Shown piece after piece: positions 45,267 through 46,956 of a stretch of DNA of 64,000 nt. Under the pieces are notes generated by a model, which ran no database searches, was not told where the DNA came from, and saw only the letters and a list, made by a program, of their open reading frames with translations. The position numbers and the translations under genes were made by a program. This stretch comes from Pseudomonas fluorescens NCIMB 11764 (GTDB lineage Bacteria; Pseudomonadota; Gammaproteobacteria; Pseudomonadales; Pseudomonadaceae). Every line of letters begins with the position of its first letter. The first letter of the stretch is position 1. The DNA lies in contig NZ_CP010945.1 in the NCBI RefSeq assembly GCF_000293885.2, positions 5,042,001 to 5,106,000 of the forward strand. The letters run 5' to 3'.

Positions 45267-46163
45267 ATGGAACGCGTATCGAATCTGAACACCCAGCCTC
45301 GGGAAAACTTCACCAGTGGCTGGCTCAACGGGCTGATCGGCGTGGTGATCTTCAGCGGCTCGCTGCCCGCCACGCGGGTCGCGGTGCTGGAGTTCGATCC
45401 GGTGTTCCTGACTGTTGCCCGGGCCACCATCGCCGGCGTGCTTGCGCTGTGCCTGCTGTGGCTGTTCAAGGAAAAACGTCCGGCGCGCAGCCAGTTGCTG
45501 CCGCTGGTCATCGTGGCCATGGGCGTGGTGGTCGGGTTTCCACTGCTGACGGCGCTGGCCCTGCAATACGTGACCTCGGCGCACTCGATCGTCTTCGTGG
45601 GGTTGCTGCCGCTCGCGACCGCCGTGTTTGGCGTGGTGCGCGGTGGCGAGCGGCCTCGCCCGGTGTTCTGGTTTTTCTCGGTGCTGGGCAGTGTGCTGGT
45701 GGTGGGATTTGCCGTGTCCCAAGGCCTGACCGCCTCGCCGGAAGGCGACCTTCTGATGCTGGCGGCGATCCTGGCCTGCGGCCTCGGTTATGCCGAAGGG
45801 GCGAAGCTGTCCCGGACACTCGGTGGCTGGCAGGTGATTTCCTGGGCGCTGGTGTTGTCACTGCCGGTGATGGCGTTGTTGACCTTGTGGCTCAAGCCCG
45901 TTTCGTTCTCGGGGATCAGTGCGCCGGCGTGGTTCAGCCTGGGTTATGTGTCGCTGTTCAGCATGTTGATCGGTTTTGTGTTCTGGTATCGCGGGCTGGC
46001 GCAGGGCGGGATTGCGGCCGTGGGGCAACTGCAACTGCTGCAGCCATTTTTTGGCTTGGCGCTGGCGGCGACGTTGCTGCACGAGCACGTCAGCATTGGC
46101 ATGCTGGCGGTCACGGTGGCGGTGATTCTCTGTGTGGCAGGCGCGAAGAAGTTTGCGAAGTAA
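45267..46163 (+). CDS. EamA/DMT-superfamily transporter
   Basis: A 298-residue inner-membrane protein with about ten hydrophobic segments in two EamA repeats; landmarks LIGVVIFSGSLPATRVAVLEFDPVFLTVARA and, in the second half, GLAQGGIAAVGQLQLLQPFFGLALAATLLHEHV. Likely exports a small metabolite. ATG at 45267 chosen over a GTG three codons earlier. Divergent from the MocR-type regulator. Confidence 0.92.
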   Translation: MERVSNLNTQPRENFTSGWLNGLIGVVIFSGSLPATRVAVLEFDPVFLTVARATIAGVLALCLLWLFKEKRPARSQLLPLVIVAMGVVVGFPLLTALALQYVTSAHSIVFVGLLPLATAVFGVVRGGERPRPVFWFFSVLGSVLVVGFAVSQGLTASPEGDLLMLAAILACGLGYAEGAKLSRTLGGWQVISWALVLSLPVMALLTLWLKPVSFSGISAPAWFSLGYVSLFSMLIGFVFWYRGLAQGGIAAVGQLQLLQPFFGLALAATLLHEHVSIGMLAVTVAVILCVAGAKKFAK

Positions 46164-46320
46164 CCGGTCTGTTTTCGTTCGAATCTGGCTGTTTAACCGG
46201 CTTGTTTAAGTGCGATCAGATTTACTTCCTGAAAGCTACATGACCTTGCGCCGTTGCCTACGGGTACGCCAGAATCCGCCGGCTTGTGCACCTTGGACCT
46301 GGGATTTATCGTTTTCCGGT

Positions 46321-46545
46321 CGCTGAAAAGAACAGCGATCGGGTTTGGTAGCCCGGGTTATACAAGGTGTATTGCATCACCATTCGGGGCGTTTTTTGTC
46401 TCGACTTTATGGTGGTCATGCACAGGGCGCCTTCGGGCGCGCCGGTTTCCTTGTGCCCGGTCTACCAACCTGCGTATGGCCACCACCTTCGTTTGGTAGC
46501 GAAGGTGATGGCTCCTGGTTTGTTGCTGCACAAGGAGTTGTACCT
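46321..46545 (+). ncRNA. Structured leader of the DUF6124 gene, candidate RNA switch
   Basis: Seen by hand folding on the plus strand: hairpin CGCTG/CAGCG (46321-46337); hairpin CGGG/CCCG (46340-46355) with loop TTTGGTAG; long-range helix GGTGGTCAT (46411-46419) with ATGGCCACC (46476-46484) enclosing GCACA/TGTGC and a GCGCC-TTCG-GGCGC tetraloop hairpin (46427-46440); free CTACCAA (46462-46468); hairpin CCTTCG/CGAAGG (46486-46505) again with loop TTTGGTAG; then CTCCT (46512-46516) pairing with the Shine-Dalgarno AGGAG (46533-46537). CTACCAA can pair with either loop. No terminator, so control would be translational. No gene is supported in 46164-46545. Confidence 0.65.
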
Positions 46546-46905
46546 ATGTTCAAAGTAACGCCCAACCCGCCAGACACCGATCCGGTTTCCCCGTACGAAC
46601 CCGATTCAAAAAAACTCAACGACGCCGCCGAACGAGCCCTCGACTTTCATTTCCCGTCGGCTGCCGACCTCAAAGGCACCCCGCGCACCATCACAAAGAT
46701 GTTCACCGTCAACCCTGAACTCGATACCGAAACCCTGCTGGCCCATGCGTGTGAGTCGCTGGCCTCGGCCAACGTCATGACCATGGACCTGGCGGACCAC
46801 ATGGACGGGCCGAGTCGCAACACCCTGTTGGGCATTGCACAAGTCATCATGCTCGGCGAGCTGGCGGTCAACCGGGCGCTGGATCAACTCGACCCGATCG
46901 AATAG
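46546..46905 (+). CDS. DUF6124 family small protein
   Basis: A 119-residue soluble protein of a family confined largely to Pseudomonas (DUF6124). It starts MFKVTPNPPDTDP, has a disordered proline-rich N-terminus, then helices with the pattern DTETLLAHACESLASANVMTMDLADHMDGPSRNTLLGIAQVIMLGELAVNRALDQ. The AGGAG site lies 8 nt before the ATG but can be sequestered by the leader. The function is unknown. A strong stem-loop follows. Confidence 0.88.
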   Translation: MFKVTPNPPDTDPVSPYEPDSKKLNDAAERALDFHFPSAADLKGTPRTITKMFTVNPELDTETLLAHACESLASANVMTMDLADHMDGPSRNTLLGIAQVIMLGELAVNRALDQLDPIE

Positions 46906-46927
46906 CCACGGCCTCCCATGAATGTAC

Positions 46928-46956
46928 GGTGCCTGCGGCTCAAGCCGCACGGCACC
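46928..46956 (+). terminator. Strong stem-loop after the DUF6124 gene
   Basis: GGTGCCTGCGGC pairs with GCCGCA-c-GGCACC (12 bp with one bulge, 4-nt loop). There is no T-run, so it is more likely a transcript-stabilising or Rho-assisted end than a classic terminator. Confidence 0.45.

Follow-up and report, generated by a model that had tools for sequence, protein, structure and literature searches.

The leader of the DUF6124 gene in the window (the whole stretch of 64,000 nucleotides of Pseudomonas fluorescens NCIMB 11764 DNA analysed here) is a C4 antisense RNA cassette of the phage type, a known kind of element. Two Rfam families are found in it above their gathering cut-offs: the C4 antisense RNA (RF01695), with 83.5 bits against a cut-off of 45, and c4-a1b1 (RF03163, positions 46306–46359), with 48.6 bits against 46.7. 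Below its gathering score of 50 is isrK (RF01394, 46319–46396), with 36.4 bits; these three are the sole Rfam families at E ≤ 1 within 46150–46950, and no riboswitch family is matched there. An earlier note on this DNA had proposed a translational RNA switch of no described class. A new class is ruled out by the matches to C4 and c4-a1b1; translation as the likely point of control stands, and the metabolite-switch reading gives way to an antisense RNA acting on the sites a2 and b2, owing to these families and to the layout of the P1 operon. Given the family, the layout, the covariation and the locus-specific complementarity observed here, and with processing, action in trans and repression taken by analogy with P1, the leader very probably constitutes a full C4 antisense system like that of phages P1 and P7.

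Flanking the antisense RNA are two pairs of target sites, and behind them lies the cargo gene (Table 1). The two hairpins that the earlier note had pointed out, with the identical loop TTTGGTAG on differing stems, are present, as are CTACCAA, the TTCG hairpin and the pairing of CTCCT with AGGAG; CTACCAA (a′) is complementary to both loops and has two competing partners. The second code, formed by b′, b1 and b2, and the identity of the family were absent from that note.

Table 1. Elements of the C4–DUF6124 cassette, in positions of the window.
Element	Position	Strand	Basis or remark
Conserved upstream block, probably promoter and upstream site	46222–46299	+	Left edge of the unit common to different genomic contexts (blastn)
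−35-like TTGTGC	46284–46289	+	Putative, by reading
−10-like TATCGT	46307–46312	+	Putative, by reading
5′ hairpin (GGTCGCTG...CAGCGAT)	46318–46339	+	c4-a1b1 Rfam alignment
a1 hairpin, CGGG-TTTGGTAG-CCCG; loop 46344–46351 is a1, upstream target of a′	46340–46355	+	RF03163; pairing with a′ in all 36 leaders
b1, ACAAGG, upstream target of b′	46362–46367	+	6-nt complement of b′; order as P1 b1
C4 antisense RNA	46405–46490	+	RF01695; predicted processed form 46411–46487, 77 nt
b′ loop of C4 hairpin 2, TTTCCTTGTGC	46446–46456	+	TCCTTGTGC (46448–46456) complementary to b2
a′, CTACCAA, single-stranded in the C4 fold	46462–46468	+	C4 consensus structure; covaries with a1 and a2
a2 hairpin, CCTTCG-TTTGGTAG-CGAAGG; loop 46492–46499 is a2, downstream target of a′	46486–46505	+	Position as P1 a2
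b2, GCACAAGGA, target of b′, overlapping the Shine-Dalgarno AAGGAG	46528–46536	+	9-nt exact complement of b′; position as P1 b2
DUF6124 protein, 119 amino acids, cassette cargo	46546–46905	+	PF19619, 97.6 bits

That the leader is a structured regulatory RNA, as had been suggested, is borne out by the Rfam matches and by its fold. The minimum free energy of the 231-nt leader is −107.2 kcal/mol, against −79.25 ± 5.32 kcal/mol in 200 dinucleotide shuffles, none of which is as low (z = −5.25). The three-stem C4 fold is found in it, with the long closing stem, the tetraloop hairpin, the b′ hairpin and a single-stranded a′. Upstream, the block at 46222–46305 has five matches in the window's own genome, every one of them 5′ of a DUF6124 C4 cassette; a consensus scan found no promoter, and one at this block is putative. 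Between b1 and C4 is a run of six T (46392–46397), which sits in a hairpin loop. Elsewhere in the window, on the reverse strand at 1532–1596, is a TwoAYGGAY RNA (51.9 bits against 43; a partial match to model positions 45–113).

The closest likeness is to phage P1: its sequence record annotates a1, b1, C4 (77 nt), a2 and b2 one after another, followed by icd, an arrangement like that of the window. From the end of C4 to the start codon are 51 nt in P1 and 55 nt in the window (measured there from the Rfam end), and P1 scores 68.8 bits with C4, 51.0 with c4-a1b1 and 35.1 with isrK. The P1 c4–icd sequence has self-complementarity like that of the window, so that the order of parts from a1 to the small reading frame, the spacing, the fold, the a′/b′ complementarity and the predicted 77-nt product are all shared with the P1/P7 system. 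The P1 C4 RNA was reportedly studied by Citron, Schuster, Hartmann and Heinrich. The window differs from P1/P7 in its chromosomal locus, in the many copies per genome, and in its cargo, which is DUF6124 and not icd–ant, with no antirepressor gene after it; the next gene downstream is DJ-1/PfpI-like, and control of an icd–ant operon as in P1 is not found here (icd–ant is not part of the Rfam model). P1 Icd has no match among the cargo profiles (best E-value 0.033) and was rejected as a relative of the cargo.

The loop–receptor pairing is far above chance. We aligned 36 leaders, those of the window and of 35 of the 79 DUF6124 homologues with C4, chosen among distinct codes; the MAFFT alignment was built without structure, and the columns were fixed from the window alone. 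Full pairing of a1 with a′ is present in 36 of 36 leaders and of a′ with a2 in 33 of 36. For a1–a′, standard pairs fill all 252 cells (100%), compared with 85.4% on average in shuffles and 40.9% or less in slid controls. Both-side changes occur at six of seven pairs, and the covariation score is 0.437, where shuffles give 0.136 and slid controls no more than 0.103. For a′–a2 the values are 98.8% of cells (shuffles 84.3%, slid controls at most 48.1%), again six of seven pairs with both-side changes, and a score of 0.436 (shuffles 0.136, slid controls at most 0.114). The shuffles ignore the relatedness of the leaders and the slid controls preserve it. A measure of further pair types is not distinctive, being reached by 115 (a1–a′) and 108 (a′–a2) of 500 shuffles.

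The hairpins and C4 stems together are paired in 96.1% of cells, with both-side changes at 16 of 42 pairs. Within them, the 5′ hairpin (helix 1) is paired in 99.1% of cells (both-side changes at two of six pairs) and C4 helices 3–5 in 96.7, 100 and 98.3% (nine of 27 pairs); weakest of the stems is that of a2, at 81.8%. Covariation, whose absence the earlier note had named as refuting, is present in the stems and in the pairing of the loops with CTACCAA, and the note's claim of selection on a loop–receptor contact holds. Conservation through an overlapping protein frame, the other way in which that claim could have failed, is rejected: the frame of the gene is open through C4 in only 31 of 97 DUF6124 cassettes, the window among them.

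A generic hairpin search placed a1 and a2 in 173 of 190 cassettes, with a1 complementary in 148 and a2 in 92 of the 173; it misplaced many loops, and equal-window self/non-self tests and the structure-free alignment were used instead. In the window's genome, a′ is complementary to its own targets in 21 of 21 cassettes, and across four data sets complementarity is higher with own targets than with those of other cassettes. Of the four contacts b1–b′ is the weakest, with a run of at least 6 nt in 41 of 76 distinct DUF6124 cassettes.

C4 family RNAs are described as cut out of a transcript and acting in trans (excerpts of PMC5320573). On the model of P1, a single transcript would carry a1–b1, the C4 RNA, a2–b2 and the DUF6124 reading frame, and RNase P, cutting at 46410/46411 as predicted from the P1 cut site, would yield the 77-nt RNA of 46411–46487; ATGG, the pattern of the predicted cut site, stands at the C4 5′ end in 137 of 150 cassettes. 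In trans, its exposed a′ would pair with the loop of a2 and its exposed b′ (TCCTTGTGC) with b2 at the Shine-Dalgarno site, and binding to messages of its own kind would stop DUF6124 translation, by analogy with P1 and its relatives. It is probable, on that analogy, that RNase P frees a 77-nt C4 RNA that blocks DUF6124 translation in trans. The second copy of the targets, a1/b1, could pair in cis with a′/b′ in the uncut transcript and act as a decoy or timing element.

In the window, the uncut leader reaches −107.2 kcal/mol when a′ pairs with a1 and −102.4 kcal/mol when a′ is kept unpaired. From the 5′ hairpin onward, a′–a1 pairing in cis is part of the minimum-free-energy fold in 84 of 146 leaders, the window included, with a median gain of 1.25 kcal/mol; with the DNA upstream of the likely start included, the count is 48 of 146. 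As this pairing competes with the C4 fold in the uncut leader, a decoy role for a1/b1 is plausible. The same folds, and the complementarity of a′ to both loops of one transcript, would also suit a translational switch in cis, in which a′ would pair with either a1 or a2 of its own transcript, and the loop it takes would decide how accessible the ribosome site is. A cis a′–a2 fold is, however, of minimum energy in 0 of 146 leaders in both runs (by a program that cannot predict pseudoknots), the C4 stems covary as a self-contained unit, and the RNA fully matches a family whose members, according to parts of PMC5320573, are excised and act in trans; we regard such a switch as very unlikely. The points against the C4 reading itself are this preferred cis fold, a cargo that is not icd or ant, a b′–b2 run of at least 6 nt in only 117 of 150 cassettes, and the DUF6124 and DUF3077 matches of the window's genome that lack C4, counted below.

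Another arrangement of the same elements is that of Gifsy-1 IsrK/STnc1160 and of the P4 CI RNA with seqA and seqC, which, according to excerpts of PMC4825925, likewise have an internal RNA with complementary stretches on both sides in a phage-operon leader. IsrK differs in that it activates, and its model scores below the gathering score in the window. Here a short 5′ RNA (a1–b1) ending before C4 would activate, in trans, translation of the read-through message, a mechanism reported for IsrK in Salmonella in those excerpts. The sub-threshold isrK match is in keeping with it, and so is the frequency of T runs: 45 of 187 cassettes have at least five T in a row between a1 and C4, compared with 7 of 187 further upstream and 0 of 187 within the reading frame. 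P1 itself, however, reaches a similar score with isrK, three in four cassettes have no such run, and that of the window is in a hairpin loop, which leaves this arrangement very unlikely. The T-run count and the position of the window's run also speak against an intrinsic terminator before C4 as a general attenuator, which was rejected.

The C4 RNA that we favour, acting in trans, is tied to small genes. Among 150 cassettes of five genomes, 148 have cargo in five small-gene groups defined by iterated local profiles: DUF6124 (97), DUF3077 (21), a third, unnamed group (21), a BRO-like group (6) and a short group (3); two fit no group. An alignment by eye had hinted at a common superfamily of DUF6124, DUF3077 and the third group, which was rejected at profile-comparison probabilities below 2%. 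The AlphaFold2 model of the DUF6124 protein has a helical hairpin (residues 61–84 and 88–114; mean pLDDT 77.5, pTM 0.49). Among open-licence PMC papers none was found on DUF6124, and DUF3077 appears there in a resequencing study, as far as its available text goes. The two BRO-like proteins of the window's genome match Bro-N, and one of them (L020) matches phage anti-repressor PHROGs. This protein begins MIKVTPNPP, a start shared with DUF6124 proteins (an 11-column profile match, probability 79%), as if leader and first codons had been exchanged as one module. In three other loci of that genome (L008, L009 and L015), the first reading frame after b2 is short and overlaps the start of DUF3077, like icd and ant.

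Of the 80 DUF6124 homologues retained from genome contigs (461 confirmed), 78 have C4 no more than 70 nt upstream and one more has it at 134 nt; in viral contigs the distance is likewise within 70 nt in 46 of 55, and in eight more C4 is 527–548 nt upstream. As the usual spacing is about 50 nt, a second gene may stand between C4 and DUF6124 in these eight viral loci (L154, L155, L157–L161 and L198). Without C4 are one of the 80 (L146, with other DNA upstream) and one of the 55 (L195, which starts at a contig edge). In the window's genome, five of 16 matches to DUF6124 or DUF3077 have no C4 within 1.5-kb flanks (four of 15 places, one being matched by both models). Two of its loci, L023 (DUF6124, at about 892 kb) and L035 (DUF3077, at about 2282 kb), retain by eye the 5′ and a1-type hairpins without C4, and the L035 copy looks broken, matching model positions 49–77 only. 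L023 as a trans target of another C4 was considered on a 6-nt a-type match to L020 seen by eye, with no b match seen, and is not claimed.

As to purpose, the cassette could be a type I toxin–antitoxin module, compatible with the C4 mechanism, in which a toxic DUF6124 protein is held down by C4 as RNA antitoxin and the cassette persists by addiction. The small size of the cargo, its antisense control, the low crosstalk among numerous copies and the sporadic presence of the cassettes would all fit, and the P1 record describes Icd as inhibiting cell division. However, neither PADLOC nor NCBIfam has a match for any of the three main cargo groups, and PHROGs offers only a function-unknown family for DUF3077; C4 and message lie on one transcript, so that loss of the cassette would not by itself favour the toxin; and at L023, where C4 is absent, the DUF6124 gene and an a1-type hairpin are still present. 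We consider addiction unlikely as the purpose.

C4 antisense cassettes are much repeated in Pseudomonas. A C4 match is present in 110 of 119 Pseudomonas genomes, in 109 of them above the cut-off, with a median of 13 per genome over the 119, at least 20 in 46 genomes and at least 33 in 16. The genome of the window has 21 above the cut-off, each with its own a′/b′ pair, and four single-contig genomes chosen among those with at least 33 have 42, 36, 43 and 55. In a class-wide draw, C4 is found in 18 of 274 genomes, with 1–6 copies in the 17 besides the window's own. In the consulted part of Weinberg et al. 2010 (PMC2864571), Proteobacteria and phages are listed as carrying C4, and gamma-Proteobacteria and phages as carrying c4-a1b1. 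Predictions in Pseudomonadales were already noted in excerpts of PMC5320573, which also describe 21 similar C4-like Group 1 sRNAs with variable a′ in Acinetobacter baumannii AB5075, with RNA-seq coverage consistent with processing at GG. Multiplication of C4 is strong in Pseudomonas and, judging from those excerpts, not unique to it. Both cases have many similar C4-like RNAs in one genome; the targets in AB5075 are left open in the same excerpts, whereas in the Pseudomonas cassettes each C4 comes with a cargo gene and target sites of its own, and the codes covary with the targets.

Each cassette matches its own targets and few others. From the 197 C4 matches of five genomes we took 150 (G000, the window's own, 21 of 21; G005, 34 of 42; G010, 12 of 36; G097, 38 of 43; G049, 45 of 55), leaving out low-scoring matches and most of G010 and dropping one duplicate, and scored runs of at least 6 complementary nt in an upstream region of 170 nt, an a2 region of 40 nt and a b2 region of 90 nt. 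Such runs with the own target are found for a′ upstream in 150 of 150, for a′ in the a2 region in 146 and for b′ in the b2 region in 117, against 13.5, 11.0 and 15.5% of non-self pairs within a genome. Both a2 and b2 are matched in 114 of 150 self pairs, against 64 of 5060 ordered pairs within genomes (1.3%) and 315 of 17290 between genomes (1.8%). Within their genomes, 149 of the 150 (a′, b′) pairs are distinct (21/21, 33/34, 12/12, 38/38 and 45/45, in the order above). The code pair of the window recurs once among the 150 (L255, in G049); a collection of 190 cassettes that includes the window has no second instance of it.

Codes differ even on closely related cargo. For DUF6124 cargo of at least 90% identity, cross-compatible pairs number one of 42 within genomes and 12 of 46 between them. 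The corresponding counts are 2/77 within and 0/70 between at 75–90% identity, 3/79 and 2/93 at 65–75%, 4/186 and 19/395 at 55–65%, and 13/685 and 77/2467 below 55%; the difference is clear only at 90% or more, slight below 65% and reversed at 65–75% and 75–90%. The 42 close pairs within genomes have median identities of 86.6% in the coding region and 54.9% in the RNA module, none reaching 85% in the module; for the 46 between genomes the medians are 87.4 and 61.8%, with seven at 85% or more in the module. Four pairs followed in full have near-identical coding regions and unlike RNA modules, two of them (L279/L297 and L317/L331) with a near-identical upstream block as well. Neighbouring cassettes, about 1.4 kb apart in G005 (L317/L331) and 4 kb apart in G097 (L257/L339), are 92.8 and 97.5% identical in coding region and 55.6 and 56.4% in module. 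These sequence comparisons suggest selection for unlike codes within a genome, and are suggestive only, because the pairs are non-independent, those between genomes include likely orthologues and five genomes are compared; alternatively, the coding regions may have been homogenised by gene conversion.

The cassettes probably descend from phage immunity operons, since C4 in Pseudomonas phages precedes operons with antirepressor-type genes. The C4 of L001 is matched by 32 phage records, of which five were examined, and the window's leader matches one record. In these five (PAJU2, vB_Pae_CF3a, phiAH14b, Phipami28 and vB_Pae_U10) the C4 codes match their own flanks by eye, as in the cassettes; the genes that follow differ. 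In PAJU2, C4 is directly 5′ of Bro-N; in vB_Pae_CF3a it is 5′ of a small reading frame overlapping a Rha gene; and in phiAH14b, Phipami28 and vB_Pae_U10 small reading frames without a Pfam match come next, with a helix–turn–helix gene further on in U10. Overlapping a Rha/KilAC-type gene (ATGA) is DUF3077 without C4, in five of five loci: L377 and four viral contigs. DUF3077 there holds the place of icd before ant in P1. The L377 gene matches the Rha and KilAC domains, and its counterparts in the four viral contigs are 66–83% identical; in L377 (6864–8204, in a prophage-like region of the window's genome), Arc-like, DUF3077 and Rha/KilAC-type genes stand in a row. Upstream, L377, L379 and L380 have an Arc-like gene, and L382 and L381 show a short match to it (in L381 also on the other strand).

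The cassette behaves as a unit of about 46200/46222 to 46896/46913, the extent shared across other contexts by blastn, and no integrase or transposase is seen within it. The window's EamA and DJ-1 neighbours are absent from the flanks of all 135 DUF6124 homologue loci (a positive control was run). Among the 30 loci with the best EamA matches, the window's included, a cassette lies within 1.5 kb in three, two of them in opposite orientation, and 27 are without one (one of the 30, L242, covers only about 870 nt downstream). In L216, sequence around the end of EamA (CCGGCCGGTCTTGCGGCCAACAAAAACCC) recurs beyond the cassette, as if by insertion or duplication there. C4–DUF6124 is carried on two of five plasmids found (L389 and L390, the two examined, both from Pseudomonas), in one of them near an IS3 transposase. 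In one viral contig (L173), the cassette is about 1.9 kb upstream of a reading frame taken by eye as the tape-measure gene.

No paper describing multiplied C4 cassettes with private codes in Pseudomonas was found among open-licence PMC papers. A tentative possibility is that the repertoire of up to about 20–55 self-silencing cassettes in a Pseudomonas cell amounts to a set of incompatibility or immunity groups. Each cassette would respond to its own C4 alone; an incoming cassette whose code is unused would be expressed until its own C4 accumulates, and one with a code already present would be silenced at once. Selection would then favour novel codes even where the cargo genes are almost the same, and the cell would have an RNA memory of the cassettes, perhaps phages, already present.

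C4 is a classic phage immunity RNA, with few studied examples, and here it is a much-repeated chromosomal module in one genus, in which each examined cassette pairs C4 with its own target sites, mostly alongside small genes of unknown function. With dozens of natural antisense pairs per cell and little predicted crosstalk, these cassettes would offer a ready test of how RNA–RNA specificity evolves. They also give a first functional setting for DUF6124 and DUF3077, the latter also heading phage antirepressor operons, in the position of icd.
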